From: Aureibaculum sp. 2308TA14-22
GTDB taxonomy: Bacteria > Bacteroidota > Bacteroidia > Flavobacteriales > Flavobacteriaceae
Reading direction: 5' to 3'
Assembly (NCBI RefSeq): GCF_040538665.1
Contig: NZ_JBEWXT010000001.1
Span: forward strand, 186,001 to 250,000
Length of the DNA: 64,000 nt
The translations under genes were made by a program, and so were the position numbers. The notes beneath the pieces are model-generated. The model had not been told where the DNA came from, ran no database searches, and saw only the letters and a list, made by a program, of their open reading frames with translations. Below are positions 44,261-52,583 of this stretch, one piece after another (position 1 is the first letter of the stretch; every line of letters begins with the position of its first letter).

Positions 44261-45394
44261 TTAGATACCTTCGGAATTTATTAACCCAATTATTTTTTGA
44301 TAATCTTCCGTATTTTTTTCAAAATCCATTTCAGAAACATCTATAATTAAAGTGTTCAAATCTTGTTCAGTTTTTATAAAATTAGCGTAACCTCTATGTA
44401 TTTTTTCTAAATATTCTTGCTGTATGTTCTGCTCATAATCTCTCCCTCTTTTTTTTATGTTTTCAAGTAAACTTTCAGTATTCTGATAAAGATAAACGTA
44501 CAAATCGGGCTTGGTAATTTCTTTGTACATTACATCAAAAATACGTCTGTATAATTTGTATTCTTCGTTAGATAAGGAAACTTGTGCAAAAATCAGGGAT
44601 TTAAAAATATAGTAATCGGAAACAATAAAGTTTTTAAATAAATCGAACTGAGCCAAATCATCAGAAAGTTGTTGATACCTATCCGCCAAAAAACTCATTT
44701 CAAGTGGAAAAGCATAACGCTCCATATCTTCATAGTATTTTGGTAAAAAAGGGTTGTCTGCAAAACGTTCTAGTACTAATTTTGCGTTAAAATCATGCCC
44801 GATCATTTTTGCTAATGTCGATTTTCCTGCACCAATATTTCCTTCAATAGCAATATAATTGTATTTTTCTACAAAAGAAATTGGTCTTTTCAGTTGTAAA
44901 TTTGTTTTTTCAATATTAGATATGTCCGCACAATTCACTAGACAGTTTGTAATTGTTTCATTAGCAATGGGGTGTTTTAGTTGTGGTGCAATTTCCACTA
45001 AAGGGACTAATACAAACTTACGTTCCAACATTCTCGGGTGCGGTATGGTCAAATTTTGATCAGAAAAAATAACTTCATTTTCGAAAAGTAGTATATCTAT
45101 ATCAATTGTCCTTGCTTTGTATTCACTTGATGAGTCTCTATTTCTTCCTAAACTTGTTTCAATGGCTAAAACACGTTCTAGCAAAATTTCAGGAGTCAAA
45201 TTGCAAGTAACTTCGATACATATATTTAGAAAGTCATTACTTTTAAAACCCCATGAAGCCGTTTTGTAAACAGAAGAAATTTTGGTAATTCTACCTACAT
45301 TCTTAGCAATTGAATCAATTGCTAATTGCAGATTTTCTAGAGAGCTACCAACATTACTGCCTAATGATAAATATGTGTTTTGATACGTTTTCAT
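44261..45394 (-). CDS. FolK pyrophosphokinase fused to deoxynucleoside kinase
   Basis: From ATG at 45394 (MKTYQNTYLSLGSN) the protein has 377 residues and two enzymes. Residues ~1-160 are HPPK/FolK: YLSLGSNVG, ETSLGRNRDSS, RTIDIDILLFENE, IPHPRMLERKFVLVPL, which add pyrophosphate to 6-hydroxymethyldihydropterin for folate. Residues ~175-377 are a deoxynucleoside kinase: P-loop EGNIGAGKSTLAK, ERFADNPFLPKYYED, SDYYIFKSLIFA, RRIFDVMY and lid KKRGRDYEQN. Both domains have intact motifs. It lies beside gldC and on the same side as a DHFR/ThyA cluster. An upstream in-frame start at 45451 is less likely. Confidence 0.9.
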   Translation of the reverse strand: MKTYQNTYLSLGSNVGSSLENLQLAIDSIAKNVGRITKISSVYKTASWGFKSNDFLNICIEVTCNLTPEILLERVLAIETSLGRNRDSSSEYKARTIDIDILLFENEVIFSDQNLTIPHPRMLERKFVLVPLVEIAPQLKHPIANETITNCLVNCADISNIEKTNLQLKRPISFVEKYNYIAIEGNIGAGKSTLAKMIGHDFNAKLVLERFADNPFLPKYYEDMERYAFPLEMSFLADRYQQLSDDLAQFDLFKNFIVSDYYIFKSLIFAQVSLSNEEYKLYRRIFDVMYKEITKPDLYVYLYQNTESLLENIKKRGRDYEQNIQQEYLEKIHRGYANFIKTEQDLNTLIIDVSEMDFEKNTEDYQKIIGLINSEGI

Positions 45395-45457
45395 CAAAGA
45401 GCTACAAAGAAAAATAAAATCATTAGATAAAAGATTATCTTTGCAGCTCAATTTATA

Positions 45458-45562: not shown

Positions 45563-47335
45563 ATGAAATTTTTAAGGGAATTATTGGCGGCAATATTAGG
45601 TGTTTTTATTGCTATGGGAATTATGTTTGTGATTTTGATGCTATTTATATCTGCCTCGGCTTCAGCATTTGGTGATGATACAAAAGTAACGGTTAAAGAC
45701 AATTCGGTTTTAGAACTGAATCTAGAAAGCCAGATAGTTGATTATGCTCCAAAAAGTAGCGATCCGTTTGCGGAAATTTTTGATATGGAAGAAGGTAAAA
45801 TGGGTTTACAACAGATTTTAAATGCTATTGAAAATGCAAAGAACGATGATAAAATTAAAGGTATAAGCATCAACACATTGTTTGTAAATGCTGGTATGGC
45901 CCAAACACAAGCTGTTAGAGATAAACTGATGGAATTTAAGGAGTCAGGTAAATTTATTACTGCTTATGCTGATTTTTATTTGCAAAGTAATTATTATTTA
46001 AGTTCGGTTGCAGATTCTGTTTATGTTAATCCTATTGGAGAAATTGATTTTAGAGGTCTGTCAACTGAAATATTATATTATAAAGATTTACAAGAAAAAT
46101 CAGGTGTTAAAATGGAAGTTATACGTCATGGTAAATACAAAAGTGCTGTTGAGCCTTTCTTAGAAGATAAAATGAGTGCTGCTAATAGAGAACAGGTTTC
46201 CTCTTTTTTAAATTCTATTTGGGATGAAATAGTTGTTGACATAGCCGATAGTAGAAATAAAACCATATCAGAAGTCGATGCCATTGCTGATGATTTATTG
46301 GCTAGAACACCGGAAATGGCTATTAATAGTAACATGATAGATGATCTACTATTCAATGATGAGTACAATGATAAATTAAAGGTTTTAACTGGAATTGAAA
46401 AAGATAAAAAACTAAATAGTGTTTCCATATCGGATTATATTTCTACCGGAAAAGGAAGAATAAAGTCTACGGCCTCTGATAAAATAGCCATTATTTATGC
46501 ACAGGGAGAAATTATGTATGGTAAAGGTAGTTTGGATGTTATAGGCCAAGAAAAAATTATTGAAGCTTTAAAGAAAACTAGAAAGAATGATAAAATCAAG
46601 GCCATTGTTCTGAGAGTAAATTCTCCAGGTGGTAGTGCTTTAGCGTCAGATTTAATTTGGCGAGAGTTGGAATTGACCAAAAAAGAAAAGCCACTTGTTG
46701 TGTCTATGGGTAATTATGCAGCTTCTGGCGGATATTATATTGCTTGTAATGCTGACGAGATTTTAGCTGAACCAACGACTATAACAGGGTCTATAGGTGT
46801 TTTTGGTATGATTCCTAATTTTAGTGAATTGACCGAAGATATTGGGATAAATGCAGAACAAGTAGGTACAAATAAAAATTCATTTGCGTATAGCCCTTTT
46901 GAACCGATGACCGAAAGTTTTTATAATGTAGCTAAGGAAGGTGTAGAAGGTATATATAAAACTTTTGTAGGCAGAGTTGCTGAAGGTAGAAATATGACTG
47001 AAGCTGAAGTTGATAGTATTGCTCAGGGTAGAGTTTGGACTGGTGTTGAAGCCTTGGAAAATGGTTTGGTAGATAAATTAGGCAGTTTAGATGATGCTGT
47101 TAGCAGAGCTGCCGAGCTAGCAGAAGTGTCTGATTATAGCATTACTAATTATCCGCGTTACAAAACCGATTTTAGAGATGCACTTAACCCAATTTCATTT
47201 ATTAAAATGAGTAAAGAAAATATTTTAAAAGAGGAGTTGGGGGTAGAAAATTACCAAATTTACAAAAGCATAAAGGACTTTGCTAACTTGAAAGGTGTAC
47301 AGGCCAGAATGCCTTTTGAAATGAAGATAAAATAA
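45563..47335 (+). CDS. sppA: Signal peptide peptidase SppA (67-kDa type)
   Basis: SppA is a membrane serine protease that degrades signal peptides. The 590-residue protein has one N-terminal membrane helix (about 8-34) and two ClpP-like halves. The catalytic pair is the Lys in RHGKYKSAVEPFLED (about residue 195) and the Ser in MGNYAASGGYYIAC (about residue 390), with SPGGSALASDLIW before it and GSIGVFGMIPNF after. The length fits the long, two-domain family. It is divergent from the FolK-dNK gene. A palindromic region lies upstream and a terminator downstream. Confidence 0.95.
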   Translation: MKFLRELLAAILGVFIAMGIMFVILMLFISASASAFGDDTKVTVKDNSVLELNLESQIVDYAPKSSDPFAEIFDMEEGKMGLQQILNAIENAKNDDKIKGISINTLFVNAGMAQTQAVRDKLMEFKESGKFITAYADFYLQSNYYLSSVADSVYVNPIGEIDFRGLSTEILYYKDLQEKSGVKMEVIRHGKYKSAVEPFLEDKMSAANREQVSSFLNSIWDEIVVDIADSRNKTISEVDAIADDLLARTPEMAINSNMIDDLLFNDEYNDKLKVLTGIEKDKKLNSVSISDYISTGKGRIKSTASDKIAIIYAQGEIMYGKGSLDVIGQEKIIEALKKTRKNDKIKAIVLRVNSPGGSALASDLIWRELELTKKEKPLVVSMGNYAASGGYYIACNADEILAEPTTITGSIGVFGMIPNFSELTEDIGINAEQVGTNKNSFAYSPFEPMTESFYNVAKEGVEGIYKTFVGRVAEGRNMTEAEVDSIAQGRVWTGVEALENGLVDKLGSLDDAVSRAAELAEVSDYSITNYPRYKTDFRDALNPISFIKMSKENILKEELGVENYQIYKSIKDFANLKGVQARMPFEMKIK

Positions 47336-47366
47336 AATATTACCTTGTAAATTAAAGAAGAGAAAC

Positions 47367-47399
47367 GGCCTTAAAAATATAATTTTTGAGGTCTTTTTT
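47367..47399 (+). terminator. Terminator after sppA
   Basis: A 12-bp stem with two G-U pairs (47367-47378 with 47382-47393, 3-base loop) precedes six T. It lies in the convergent gap with the DHFR gene. Confidence 0.78.
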
Positions 47400-48261
47400 A
47401 TTTTCTCTTGTAAGTAACAAAACTATAATCGTAATCGTGTTTTTCATCTGCATAGTGATTTTCACGACTTATTTCTTTCCAAATAGTACTGTCAATTTCC
47501 GGAAAAAAAGCATCTGCATCAAAGGAGGCATCAACTAAGGTAAGGTCTAGCTTATCTGCTATTTTTATGGCTTGTTCATAGATTTGAGCACCACCCAATA
47601 TATATGGGTCGGGATCTCCAGATTCATAAAGTGCTTCTTCTAAAGAATTTACTACTTTACATAATGGTGCCTTGTAATCTGGATTTCGTGAAATAATAAT
47701 ATTGGTTCTGCTCGGTAAAGGCCCATCTAAAGATTCGTAGGTTTTTCTGCCCATAATTACATCATGTCCAGAAGTTACTTTTTTAAAACGTTTTAGATCA
47801 TTGGGTAAATGCCAAAGTAGCTGATTATTTTTTCCGAGTTCACGATGCTTACCCACAGCAGCGATTATACTAATTGAATTTTTGGTTACTTTTTTTATAG
47901 GGTTTGATGGTTTAATCTGAGGACCGATAACTCCTGTTTTGATTAATTTTTTTTCCAATCTTTCGGTTTCTGCTTTGTGTTTTTTAATCAACTTTTCGGT
48001 TTCTGTCTGTTCCCATTCTTTTCCAAAAAATTTATTAGTAATAAAAACATTTATAAAGTGAAATATCCAAACCAACAGCCAAAGAGCAACCGCATATTTA
48101 AACCATTCGCCATACTTTTCTTGACCAACATTAAAAAAAGTATTCAATACGATTAAAAATAGCGACCCAATTAAAAAAACGATAAAATGATAGTACAATC
48201 TTTTTTTCTGCTTGGTTCGCTTCTTGGCTTTTTCGTAAAGCTCGATTTGTTCCTTTTCCAT
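47398..48261 (-). CDS. Dihydrofolate reductase fused to an N-terminal 2TM domain
   Basis: The 287-residue protein has a 2TM-type domain at 1-95 (two helices: YYHFIVFLIGSLFLIVLNTFF and WFKYAVALWLLVWIFHFINVF), a charged helical linker, and a complete DHFR domain (about 130-287). DHFR motifs are SIIAAVGKHRELGKNNQLLWHLPNDLKRFK, VIMGRKTYESL, NIIISRN and YILGGAQIYEQAI. It reduces dihydrofolate to tetrahydrofolate, needed when ThyA makes dTMP. Ordinary DHFR is about 160 residues and soluble, so this one is probably membrane anchored. It begins three bases after the tandem TonB-C gene. Confidence 0.93.
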   Translation of the reverse strand: MEKEQIELYEKAKKRTKQKKRLYYHFIVFLIGSLFLIVLNTFFNVGQEKYGEWFKYAVALWLLVWIFHFINVFITNKFFGKEWEQTETEKLIKKHKAETERLEKKLIKTGVIGPQIKPSNPIKKVTKNSISIIAAVGKHRELGKNNQLLWHLPNDLKRFKKVTSGHDVIMGRKTYESLDGPLPSRTNIIISRNPDYKAPLCKVVNSLEEALYESGDPDPYILGGAQIYEQAIKIADKLDLTLVDASFDADAFFPEIDSTIWKEISRENHYADEKHDYDYSFVTYKRK

Positions 48262-48264
48262 TAA

Positions 48265-49065
48265 TTATTTTTTCTTTTTAGGCTTTTCTATAACAATGAT
48301 AATAGGCAAATTAAATTCATTACTAATTCCTACATTATTTTTTCCTGCAAGTTCTATTTTTGGTAATTGTTTTAGAATTTTAATAGCCTCGTTTTCAAAA
48401 ATTTTATGCGGCCCTCTTGCTTTAATATTTTTTACGAAACCATCATTGTCAACAGAAAATTGTGTAAAAACTTTTACTTCATCCTTTGGTTTATATCCTA
48501 ATTTCCTAATCTTTTCATAAACAGTTTCATTAGTTAAATTGGAACTGCCTTTTTCGATTACTTTTTTAATATTATCCTTAATATATTGGATATTGACTTT
48601 GTTAGTAATATCATCTTCCATTTTTTTACCGACCATTAAAACAACGGGTAACGTATATTTAACGTCCACGGCATTACCTTCATGATGCCCAGGAGTCATT
48701 TTTGGTAGCGAATAGATTACTCTTATACCTTCTTCTTCTAATGCTTTATGTTCTCCCCTTGCTTTTGCATTTTTAATGGTTCCATCAGATGCTATTTCGA
48801 AATTTACGTACAATTTGGTCTTACCAGGTTCAAGACCAACTTCATTGGCTAATTTTGTATTAAAATTCTTAGAGACATGTTTTACAATCTGATTTTGGAG
48901 ACATCTTTTTTGTAGCTTTTTTTCTATGTTCTCGCAACCGGGAAATATCGGAGGGTTTTCAATAATAGCAAAACCAACGGTCTCCGATTTTGACGTGTTA
49001 TTTTCTTGCGAAAAACCGGAAAATGCACAAAGAATCCAAAATGTAATTATAAAATATTTAATCAT
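48265..49065 (-). CDS. Exported protein with two tandem TonB C-terminal-like domains
   Basis: The 266-residue protein has a signal peptide ending GFSQ, a FPGCEN...CLQNQIVKHV element, and two copies of a TonB-C-like fold (about 60-147 and 165-262). Each copy has the DGxIKNxKARGxHK core: FEIASDGTIKNAKARGEHK and FSVDNDGFVKNIKARGPHK, and a later LPK...LPV strand. No proline-rich segment or membrane anchor besides the signal is seen, so it is not a standard energy-transducing TonB. It could bind outer-membrane receptors or peptidoglycan. It precedes the DHFR gene by three bases. Confidence 0.88.
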   Translation of the reverse strand: MIKYFIITFWILCAFSGFSQENNTSKSETVGFAIIENPPIFPGCENIEKKLQKRCLQNQIVKHVSKNFNTKLANEVGLEPGKTKLYVNFEIASDGTIKNAKARGEHKALEEEGIRVIYSLPKMTPGHHEGNAVDVKYTLPVVLMVGKKMEDDITNKVNIQYIKDNIKKVIEKGSSNLTNETVYEKIRKLGYKPKDEVKVFTQFSVDNDGFVKNIKARGPHKIFENEAIKILKQLPKIELAGKNNVGISNEFNLPIIIVIEKPKKKK

Positions 49066-49074
49066 ATTCTGAAA

Positions 49075-49266
49075 TTACATGCTTTTTAACCATTCTTTAA
49101 TATATCCTGAAAAGTCTTCTGGCTCTAAGGCATTATGCTTATTGTCAAATTCTATATGTTCGCTTTCCAAGGTGTTTAAAATAGTCTGAATAGCATTCAG
49201 CTTATTTTCATCTTCAATCTGATTAATTCGCTCAATCAAATCTTTCTTTAAAACTTCTTTTTTCAT
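49075..49266 (-). CDS. Small hypothetical protein
   Basis: The 63-residue protein is helical and acidic: an N-terminal LIERINQIEDENKLNAIQTILNTLES and a C-terminal SGYIKEWLKS. Small proteins of this shape are often antitoxin-like, but no toxin gene adjoins it. It lies nine bases upstream of the tandem TonB-C gene on the same strand and may be cotranscribed. Coding is supported by position and composition only. Confidence 0.5.
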   Translation of the reverse strand: MKKEVLKKDLIERINQIEDENKLNAIQTILNTLESEHIEFDNKHNALEPEDFSGYIKEWLKSM

Positions 49267-49574: not shown

Positions 49575-49874
49575 ATGGCAATTACTAAGAATTATTTAAA
49601 AACAAAACCAGTTTGTAAGGTAACATTTACCGTTGCTGAAACTGAAGCAGAAAAAGTTGCAGTTGTTGGAGATTTTAACAATTGGAAACCTGCAAAAAAG
49701 TATGAGTTAAAAAAGTTGAAAAACGGTAACTTTAAAGGAACTGTTGATTTAGAAAAAGATCAAGCTTATCAATTTAGATATTTAGTTGATGGTGCTTACA
49801 AAAATGACGAGCAAGCTGATAGCTATGCTTGGAACGATTACGCTGGAGCTGAAAATGCAGTTTTAGAATTGTAG
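49575..49874 (+). CDS. Isoamylase early-set (CBM48-like) domain protein
   Basis: The 99-residue protein is a single early-set immunoglobulin-like domain: CKVTFTVAETEAEKVAVVGDFNNWKPAKKYELKKL, GTVDLEKDQAYQFRYLVDG and ADSYAWNDY. DFNNW and YQFRYLVDG are the typical glycogen-binding motifs of CBM48/AMPK-beta-like domains. It is alone, without a catalytic domain or signal peptide, so it may be a small glycogen-binding or regulatory protein. It has its own promoter box and terminator. Confidence 0.92.
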   Translation: MAITKNYLKTKPVCKVTFTVAETEAEKVAVVGDFNNWKPAKKYELKKLKNGNFKGTVDLEKDQAYQFRYLVDGAYKNDEQADSYAWNDYAGAENAVLEL

Positions 49875-49955: not shown

Positions 49956-50780
49956 TTAAACAGCTACTGTTCCTTTAATATGTGGATGTGGATTATAGTC
50001 CAACAATTCAAAATCTTCAAATTTAAAATCAAAAATACTTTTGATTTCAGGGTTTATTTTCATTTTGGGTAATGGCCTTAAGTCACGCGATAATTGCAAT
50101 TCCAATTGTTCAATATGATTACTGTAAATATGGGCATCACCAAACGTATGTATAAATTCTCCCGCTTCGTAGTCACAAACTTGAGCAATCATCATTGTGA
50201 ATAAAGCATAAGAAGCAATGTTAAAAGGAACTCCTAAAAATATATCGGCACTACGTTGGTAGAGTTGGCAAGAAAGTTTTCCATTGGCAACGTAAAACTG
50301 GAAAAAAGCATGGCAAGGCGGTAACGCGGCTTTTCCGTTGGCAACATTTTCGCTAAATGATTTTGATGTGTCTGGTAATACTGAAGGATTCCAAGCTGAC
50401 ACCATCATTCTCCTACTATCGGGATTGTTTTTTAAGGTTTCGATGACATCGGTCAGTTGATCAATTTCATCACTGTTCCAATTCCGCCATTGATGCCCGT
50501 AAACAGGACCTAAATCGCCATTTTCATCGGCCCAAGCATTCCATATCCGCACACCGTTTTCTTGCAAATAATTAATATTGGTATCTCCATTAATAAACCA
50601 AAGCAACTCGTAAATAATTGATTTTAAATGTAATTTTTTAGTGGTTACAATTGGGAAACCTTCGCTCAAATCAAATCGCATCTGATGTCCAAAAACACTT
50701 TTAGTACCTGTACCAGTACGATCTCCTTTTTCGTTTCCGTTTTCTAAAACGTGTTTTACTAAATCATGATATTGCTTCAT
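49956..50780 (-). CDS. thyA: Thymidylate synthase
   Basis: ThyA methylates dUMP to dTMP using methylenetetrahydrofolate, and produces dihydrofolate. The 274-residue protein has the nucleophile Cys in [44 protein letters not shown], and [15 protein letters not shown]. It has the classical, not the flavin-dependent, form, so it depends on DHFR, which is encoded nearby (47398-48261). It ends close to the convergent CBM48 terminator and follows the nucleoside transporter by about 100 bases. Confidence 0.97.
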
Positions 50781-50882: not shown

Positions 50883-52583
50883 TTATCCAATAATCATCCC
50901 AGCAATAGTGGCAGAGATTAATGAAGCAATGGAACCTCCTATAAGGGCTTTCATACCAAACTCTGATAAGGTTTTGCGTTGCCCTGGGGCTAAAGAGCCA
51001 ATCCCTCCAATTTGAATTCCAATGGAGGCAAAATTAGCAAAACCACAGAGCATATACGTCGCCATAATAATCGATTTCTGATAACTCAAGTGCGTAGCAT
51101 TAGCAGCATTTTTTAAATCTGCTAATTGAATATAACCTACAAATTCGCTTGCAGCTAATTTTATACCTAAGAGCTGTCCCATTAACATCATATCTTCTTT
51201 AGCAACACCAATTAACCACATTAATGGAGCAAAAATAGTCCCTAAAATGGCTTCGATAGAAAAACTACTATAAGAAGTGTTATCACCAAGCCATGCATTC
51301 AATCCTGTCCAATAACCTATTTTACCCAAGCCATAATTGGCCATCGCTATAAAAGCAATAAATACTAGTAGCATAGCTCCAACATTTACTGCTAATCTTA
51401 AACCTTCTGTAGTGCCATTGGCTATCGCATCTAATATATTTGAACCAATTTTATCCTGTGATACATTTACGTCAGTATTTATAGTTTCAGTTTGCGGATA
51501 CAATATTTTAGAAATTACTATGGCTCCAGGTGCTGCCATAACCGATGCTGCTAATAAGTGTTTAGCATAAACCAATCTCAGAACAGGGTCATCACCACCC
51601 AAAAATCCAATATAAGCTGCCAATACTGCACCAGCCACGGTAGCCATTCCACCAATCATTACCAGCAGCATTTCAGATTTATTCATTTTTTCTAAATAAG
51701 CTTTTATGAGTAATGGAGCCTCAGTTTGCCCCAAGAAAATATTTCCAGCAATTGAAAGGCTTTCTGCTCCAGAAATACCAAGTGCTTTTGTTAAAAGCAT
51801 TGCCATAAATTTTACAACTTTCTGTATTATCCCTAAATAAAATAACACTGAGGTTAATGCAGAAAAGAAAATAATTGTTGGGAGTACTTGAAAAGCAAAA
51901 ATAAACCCAAAGGTGTCCATATCAACCACCAAACCTTCAAATAAAAATTGGCTTCCAGCCCTTGTAAAATCAAGAATTTTCACAAAGATTTTTCCAACAA
52001 ACTCAAATCCAGCTTGAATAAAAGGAATTTTCAAAACCCCAACGGCTATCAACAATTGAAATGCTATCCCAATACCAACAGTTTTCCAATTGATAGCTTT
52101 ACGATTACTACTAAATAAAAAGGCAATAAATAGTAAGGTAGCCATGCCTAATACGCCTCGCCATAATGAGTTTATTGAAAACCCTTGACTTGGTATTATT
52201 TCATTACTATCTGCTTTGTAAACAATTGTTGTTAGTTCATCTTTAATTTCAGAAAACTCGAATAGAATATCCTTTGACTTAAAAGCTAAAGTTGAATCTG
52301 ATAATTGTGTTATTTTGTATTTATAAATAGTATCTTTAGGAAAATCAACATAAAAAACCAATAAATTATTTTGATAAATATAGTCACCAGAAATTTTACC
52401 CTGAAAACTGGTTTCAAATTCGAATTCGCCTTTATCTAATAGTAAAAACTCATTATGATTGACTATGGAAGCTTCTTGATTATTTTGTATTGATTGTAGT
52501 TGCCATTTTTTTTCTATTTCTTGGGCGGAAGAAAAATTTAGTCCAAATAGTATAGTAATAAATAAAAGTAAATTTCTAATCAT
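50883..52583 (-). CDS. Concentrative nucleoside transporter with N-terminal periplasmic domain
   Basis: The 566-residue protein has a signal-like N terminus (1-20), then about 110 residues of beta-rich soluble domain (WQLQSIQNNQEASIVNHNEFLLLDKGEFEFETSFQGKISGDYIYQ, lipocalin-like), and a CNT/NupC body from about residue 145: GIAFQLLIAVGVLKIPFIQAGFEFVGK, AGAVLAAYIGFLGGDDP, GGIGSLAPGQRKTLSEFGMKALIGG. CNT proteins use Na+ or H+ to import nucleosides. The N-terminal domain is extra compared with ordinary CNT proteins of about 400 residues. It lies beside thyA and near a dNK fusion. Confidence 0.92.
   Translation of the reverse strand: MIRNLLLFITILFGLNFSSAQEIEKKWQLQSIQNNQEASIVNHNEFLLLDKGEFEFETSFQGKISGDYIYQNNLLVFYVDFPKDTIYKYKITQLSDSTLAFKSKDILFEFSEIKDELTTIVYKADSNEIIPSQGFSINSLWRGVLGMATLLFIAFLFSSNRKAINWKTVGIGIAFQLLIAVGVLKIPFIQAGFEFVGKIFVKILDFTRAGSQFLFEGLVVDMDTFGFIFAFQVLPTIIFFSALTSVLFYLGIIQKVVKFMAMLLTKALGISGAESLSIAGNIFLGQTEAPLLIKAYLEKMNKSEMLLVMIGGMATVAGAVLAAYIGFLGGDDPVLRLVYAKHLLAASVMAAPGAIVISKILYPQTETINTDVNVSQDKIGSNILDAIANGTTEGLRLAVNVGAMLLVFIAFIAMANYGLGKIGYWTGLNAWLGDNTSYSSFSIEAILGTIFAPLMWLIGVAKEDMMLMGQLLGIKLAASEFVGYIQLADLKNAANATHLSYQKSIIMATYMLCGFANFASIGIQIGGIGSLAPGQRKTLSEFGMKALIGGSIASLISATIAGMIIG

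Follow-up and report, generated by a model that had tools for sequence, protein, structure and literature searches.

A Two-Helix Membrane Domain as Partner of Dihydrofolate Reductase in Flavobacteriaceae, and Candidate Slippage Runs Where the Two Genes Are Split

Introduction

Dihydrofolate reductase (DHFR) has a dedicated, family-specific partner in Flavobacteriaceae, a 2TM domain that is either fused to it in frame or encoded directly upstream, and this conclusion is well supported by the comparison of sequences from many genomes of the family. The fused form is found in the stretch of DNA analyzed here, hereafter the window, which comprises 64,000 nucleotides of Aureibaculum sp. 2308TA14-22 (NCBI RefSeq assembly GCF_040538665.1, contig NZ_JBEWXT010000001.1, positions 186,001 to 250,000 of the forward strand). 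The account that we favor, with modest confidence, is that DHFR is anchored to the membrane in these bacteria, that in about half of the genomes in which the two genes are split the frames would be joined by slippage on runs of nine or ten As (A9/A10), and that the window species has become fixed in the anchored state.

DHFR is among the best-studied enzymes, is a drug target and is regarded as free in the cytosol. A family anchoring its sole DHFR would change the picture of its folate cycle and, if the account is true, an essential and normally soluble enzyme becomes a membrane enzyme. Furthermore, if slippage sets the anchored share, this would be a case in central metabolism, outside mobile elements, and in many of these genomes the joined product would escape gene calling. 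The parts (DHFR, 2TM and slippage) are known, and no description of their combination was found in the literature searched: the search, thin on subscription journals, returned none of a 2TM-DHFR protein, a membrane-bound DHFR or a slippage-joined DHFR, and the main text of a survey of frame transitions (PMC3711429) gave no hit for the term "dihydrofolate."

The Fusion Gene and Its Product

The gene and its parts, in window coordinates, are as follows.

47398..48261, minus strand: 2TM-DHFR fusion gene, 287 aa, ATG start (ORF list and Pfam)
47986..48234, minus strand: 2TM domain, residues 10-92 (Pfam, AlphaFold helices, hydropathy and charges)
47875..47985, minus strand: charged linker, residues 93-129, helical up to residue 108 and then of low confidence at 110-125 (AlphaFold)
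47890..47896, minus strand: run of seven As (A7) in the linker, near the spot where split relatives have A9/A10 and two frames
47404..47874, minus strand: DHFR domain, residues 130-286, active-site residues present (Pfam and alignment)

The sequence-only reading had described a 2TM domain, a charged linker and a complete DHFR in one chain, and this description holds, since both Pfam matches are far over their cut-offs: the 2TM family (PF13239) matches residues 10-92 with 71 bits against a cut-off of 24.8, and DHFR_1 (PF00186) matches residues 130-286 with 196 bits against a cut-off of 25, covering positions 2-159 of the 159 of the profile. Compared with Escherichia coli FolA, the DHFR part is identical at 63 of 158 aligned residues. 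At 22 FolA positions that we take to be functionally important, 17 residues are identical (including D27, W22, F31, R44, R57, G95, G96 and T113), two are conservative changes (M20L and I94L) and three, at 45, 52 and 98, are other residues; the active-site set Asp27, Trp22, Phe31, Arg57, Gly95-Gly96 and Thr113 (E. coli numbering) is thus present. By its whole domain and its active-site residues, the gene is classified as a FolA-type DHFR, sharing both with the chromosomal FolA of bacteria, to which it adds an N-terminal membrane hairpin and a linker. It departs in this from the typical soluble, single-domain form of the enzyme; likewise, its 2TM part is a clear two-helix match to the Pfam family, here joined to an enzyme of folate metabolism. 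We know of no membrane domain in the human DHFR chain.

An over-called start was considered as the source of the fusion and rejected, because no in-frame ATG occurs between the 2TM domain and the DHFR core, the closest candidates for a start being the TTG codons at residues 91 and 102. Sequencing error is an improbable cause, because a second genome of the genus (G103, locus L221) has the same fusion. The genome search found a single DHFR in the window genome, the fusion gene itself and, as ThyA is also present, the tethered enzyme should be the housekeeping DHFR.

The AlphaFold model of the product (mean pLDDT 81.8, pTM 0.54) consists of helices at residues 3-43, 51-75 and 81-108, the low-confidence stretch of the linker, and a DHFR part made of strands and helices. 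Hydropathy places two hydrophobic helices at about residues 26-43 and 56-75. The charges around this hairpin (K/R versus D/E) are 9 versus 4 before the first helix, 1 versus 2 in the loop and 14 versus 7 after the second helix, so that, by the positive-inside rule, both ends and the DHFR domain are predicted to be cytoplasmic. NADPH and dihydrofolate are cytoplasmic as well. The two-helix anchor would therefore hold DHFR at the inner membrane, on its cytoplasmic side. Among solved structures, the chains listed (the best 60 of 172) cover residues 128-287 of the fusion or less, and none covers the 2TM domain. A plasmid search with the fusion as query gave, among the 5000 best records, matches to the DHFR domain only, none of them spanning 80% of the query.

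Distribution of the 2TM-DHFR Partnership

A DHFR match was found in all 199 family genomes searched, exactly one in 196 of them. The locus was examined in 141 of the 199, namely the window genome and those whose DHFR matches were listed with positions and fetched, the others being lower-scoring or not fetched. Among these 141 genomes, 81 have the fusion, 48 are split, meaning that a separate 2TM gene lies directly upstream of DHFR on the same strand, and 12 have neither arrangement. The architecture recognized in the window is therefore widespread in the family, and the membrane tethering proposed for DHFR from the window alone gains support from the sequences of the 81 fused genomes and of two genomes of the genus. 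Nine further family loci comprise one fusion (L221), seven split loci and one with neither fusion nor 2TM neighbor (L169).

It had been argued that the 2TM segment would be suspect if homologues started at the DHFR domain. Such homologues do occur, in 60 of the 141 genomes, but 48 of these 60 have the 2TM as a gene of its own immediately upstream, which argues that the partner is real. The strongest evidence that the two belong together comes from named genomes searched with only the 2TM part and the linker as query, where all of the 80 loci kept contain DHFR (44 fused, 36 split); these 80, the best of 554, were chosen for their likeness to the DHFR-type 2TM and are no census. On these counts (81 of 141 genomes fused, 44 of the best 80 of 554 loci), a chance fusion, or one confined to a single genome, was discarded.

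Outside the family, a 2TM domain by DHFR was seen at none of 89 loci (84 from other families of the order and other orders of the class, plus five more) inspected with about 1.5-2 kb of flank. Long open frames at DHFR, of up to 347 aa, also occur outside the family; they were dropped as candidates because the five loci fetched contain no 2TM and are simply open upstream.

The 2TM part could instead be a passenger, a harmless N-terminal addition kept by linkage and with no role for DHFR, but we regard this as very improbable. In its favor, 12 of the 141 genomes keep DHFR without a 2TM beside it, and of these eight have only weak best 2TM matches anywhere in the genome (26-63 bits) and four have none. 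On the other hand, a 2TM lies in or beside DHFR in 129 of the 141, and ten residues of the DHFR-linked 2TM (A12, R15, K19, K20, H25, W61, H68, V72, W83 and E84) are the same in all 18 aligned rows, through repeated events of fusion and splitting. These invariant residues, H25, W61 and H68 among them, suggest a role beyond anchoring.

Other 2TM matches occur as well. In the window genome (G000), four further ones lie at C1:1676487-1677834 (L002-L004 and L006), the frame being short for three of them and long (451 aa) for the fourth, and a profile of the DHFR-linked 2TMs gives them no more than 18-55 bits. Some of the genomes without a DHFR-type 2TM have similar clusters of 2TM matches.

Runs of A at the Junction of Split Genes

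According to PMC1088944, programmed transcriptional slippage runs are used by Thermus dnaX and by mxiE, and a large proportion of bacterial genomes begin to show selection against slippage once runs reach nine As. In the mechanism that we propose for the split genomes, RNA polymerase would slip on the nine (sometimes ten) As at the 3' end of the 2TM gene and add one A, bringing DHFR into frame, so that in about half of these genomes the two frames would be joined at the RNA level. In the unslipped message, the stop of the 2TM gene overlaps or adjoins the DHFR start, and free 2TM and free DHFR would be made too, with membrane-bound and free DHFR in a fixed proportion as the outcome. In Thermus thermophilus dnaX, a nine-A run of the sense strand yields two products (PMC1088944); the split relatives have a like run and are predicted to have two products. 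Slippage in dnaX leads to the shorter product, whereas in the split loci it would join 2TM and DHFR into a longer one, as it joins two frames into a longer product in mxiE (PMC1088944).

The junction was analyzed in 202 of the 217 loci with both 2TM and DHFR (84 split and 118 fused); nine duplicates (same DHFR score and length, removed by an identity filter) and six loci without the W[EQDN] landmark were left out. For each of the 84 split loci, the A runs from the 2TM core to the stop of that gene were measured. The longest comprises nine As in 37 loci, ten in six, eight in 10, seven in four, and six or fewer in 27. A run of at least nine is therefore present in 43 of 84, against 23 expected (range 16-31 in 300 draws) when amino acids are fixed and codons are redrawn from the codon usage of the locus. 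When codons are shuffled within each linker, the expectation is 30 for the split loci, whose excess is then smaller, and 24 for the fused genes, of which 37 of 118 hold such runs. Elsewhere these runs are rare: in 1,023 neighboring genes, runs of at least nine As number 12 against 70 expected (about a six-fold avoidance) and runs of at least ten number one against 30, an avoidance that holds in each class of genome, and within the 2TM part itself 25 runs of at least nine were observed against 68 expected.

The runs start in all three phases relative to the 2TM frame at about equal frequency (15/12/15), which agrees better with a slipping RNA polymerase than with a ribosome that slips in one fixed phase. 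The pattern is not a recent one, since the four run-bearing groups have mean pairwise identities of 69-76% with minima as low as 58-71%. It is not general either, since 41 of the 84 split loci are without such a run.

Reading Frame at the Junction

In all of the 43 split loci with a run, DHFR lies in the -1 frame, in which one added A joins it to the 2TM, versus 21 of the 41 without (counts in which L149, with A9, the -1 frame and an ATGA overlap, is run-bearing). Part of this association follows from the overlap of start and stop (ATGA, TTGA or TAGTG, in 36 of 42 run-bearing loci once starts are re-assigned), because the overlap by itself fixes the -1 frame. At loci without such an overlap, the -1 frame is found in 6 of 6 with a run versus 5 of 25 without, starts being re-assigned and L149 entered as run-free; these figures supersede the 10 of 10 versus 6 of 24 obtained before re-assignment. 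In a phylogenetic pair test of run against frame, for which, as for the tree, L149 was also entered as run-free, the informative independent pairs point the same way without exception, yet their number is too small (median p 0.25), and the association is not significant after correction for relatedness. In one group, a late ATG was considered as proof that DHFR has no start of its own, and this was abandoned because GTG or TTG starts overlap the 2TM stop in four loci.

Between run and start, the DHFR frame is open in 42 of the 43 run-bearing loci, L222 being the exception. Where the run lies at least 20 nt before the start (19 loci), the DHFR frame is open in 18, versus 8 of 19 for the third frame; among the -1-frame split loci without a run of at least eight As, it is open for 25 nt or more in 2 of 16 (L149 excluded). 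The split relatives thus combine a conserved run of at least nine As where the frames meet with a fused frame that opens on the addition of one base, two of the features looked for in slippage genes, and from these junctions we infer, on good grounds, that slippage would make the fused chain in split genomes.

Two rivals to slippage are serious. In the first, which we consider unlikely, stop-start coupling simply yields 2TM and DHFR as separate proteins in the split genomes, and the A run serves DHFR as an A-rich signal for initiation, of the type on which Flavobacteria rely in place of Shine-Dalgarno sites. The start-stop overlaps in 36 of the 42 run-bearing loci are what coupling would show; in Flavobacterium johnsoniae, initiation is aided by As at -14 to -11, -6 and -3 (PMC6847099), and the run of the Aureibaculum group covers -19 to -11 of the DHFR start. 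However, the 19 runs whose last A is 20 nt or more upstream of the start lie outside such a signal, and the DHFR frame is still open in all but one of them. Furthermore, a short stretch of As should be enough for initiation, while the observed lengths peak at exactly nine, a length that is avoided in the neighboring genes.

The second rival is slippage during replication only, by which fused genes would be split through the loss of an A, leaving the run and the open frame as useless relics. We hold this to be quite unlikely, although it accords with changes between the fused and the split state, of which the tree requires at least six, and with the A9-A12 runs that fused genes carry close to the same 2TM/DHFR border. 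Against it, the run-bearing groups are old, as their identity minima indicate, and a useless run and frame should have decayed; moreover, the run is kept in all nine split members of the window's clade, with the fused genes nested within.

The runs of the fused genes also speak against programmed transcriptional slippage, because in 37 of these genes a run of at least nine As is present where slipping would merely shorten the chain. An internal start near DHFR is found in 4 of 44 fused genes with runs, counted up to the DHFR core. Fused genes with A9-A12 would yield some free 2TM, so that, as a speculation, a surplus of 2TM subunits may be a built-in feature. Runs of twelve As stand at the DHFR border of the in-frame fused genes L060, L331, L328 and L055.

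More tentatively, as a reading that may well be correct but that we would not quite expect to be, anchored and free enzyme would both come from one locus, with their ratio governed by the slippage on nine As, and the tract would act as a one-base switch between the fused and the slip-joined state, the window being locked in the anchored one. The use of the anchor is the weakest part of the account; it may lie in placement, in oligomerization through the 2TM, or in dosage control of an essential enzyme.

History of the Window's Clade

The nearest named relatives of the window locus, Aureibaculum luteum and A. flavum, are both split, and they and seven other genomes provide nine split loci of the clade, all of which have the A run at the same place. 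The run lies 19 nt before the DHFR start, which is TTG in five of the nine. In the FastTree phylogeny, the fusions of the window and of G103 nest inside this split, run-bearing clade. The G103 fusion keeps an A10 in frame, whereas the window has A7 there; the longest runs of the window linker are A8 and A7, and a run of nine is absent from its gene. The simplest account of the window fusion is that a slip-joined pair passed into a fixed fusion via small insertions. With an in-frame fusion and only A7 at the site of the run, the choice between anchored and free enzyme would have been removed in the window species, all of whose DHFR is predicted to be anchored. On the whole tree, which has many weak forks, four of the changes between fused and split states are forced by well-supported branches.

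Gene Neighborhood

The window order is nupC, thyA, the CBM48 gene (on the opposite strand), the 63-aa protein, the TonB_C gene, 2TM-DHFR, a convergent sppA and folK-dNK, and it is nearly identical in the close relatives. The neighbors with their coordinates are the following.

50883..52583, minus strand: NupC-type nucleoside transporter
49956..50780, minus strand: thymidylate synthase, thyA
49575..49874, plus strand: small CBM48/AMPK1-type glycogen-binding protein, between thyA and 2TM-DHFR
49075..49266, minus strand: 63-aa protein, no Pfam family over cut-off
48265..49065, minus strand: TonB_C-domain protein with two TonB_C stretches, ending 3 nt before the fusion gene (Pfam)
44261..45451, minus strand: folK (HPPK) fused to a deoxynucleoside kinase (dNK) in one 396-aa frame

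The sequence-only reading had placed the fusion next to genes for a nucleoside transporter, thymidylate synthase and a deoxynucleoside kinase, and had seen in this a hint of localized thymidylate synthesis. All three genes are present; not all are directly adjacent, as folK-dNK lies beyond sppA. The hypothesis that the anchor brings DHFR together at the membrane with ThyA, the nucleoside transporter and the kinase draws on this company (thyA, nupC and folK-dNK nearby) and on the proximity of thyA, which in 53 of 60 fused loci is no more than about 4 kb from DHFR. However, we find it doubtful. The corresponding figures are 14 of 48 for split loci and 9 of 12 for family loci without a 2TM, so that thyA is not within about 4 kb in 34 of the 48 split loci although the 2TM adjoins DHFR. 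Moreover, among 84 loci from other families and orders, all without a 2TM, 38 have thyA upstream of DHFR in the fetched flank. The proximity of thyA to DHFR is therefore not tied to the 2TM and is probably older, and the bond between 2TM and DHFR, which persists where thyA is gone, holds better than that between thyA and DHFR. Gene order was for these reasons rejected as proof of thymidylate synthesis at the membrane: the neighborhood shows that the genes share a pathway, which does not amount to their proteins meeting there. In the human dTMP synthesis complex (SHMT1, DHFR and TYMS; PMC9299187) DHFR is also placed with partners, which differ from the one described here.

The TonB_C gene and the fusion probably share one transcript, as we would judge from their 3-nt spacing. 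Some relatives have one, two or three matching TonB_C genes before DHFR, and the 63-aa protein also precedes the 2TM in several Aureibaculum and Lutibacter relatives. A gene matching the CBM48-type protein accompanies 42 of the 60 fused loci and 21 of the 48 split ones, and a counterpart of folK-dNK occurs near DHFR in several relatives. The NupC-type transporter has about 140 extra N-terminal residues with a signal-like start, as judged by eye, and a Lipocalin_4 match under the cut-off (E 0.22). Between the convergent sppA and DHFR genes, an inverted repeat with T and A runs (47335-47400) looks by eye like a two-way terminator.
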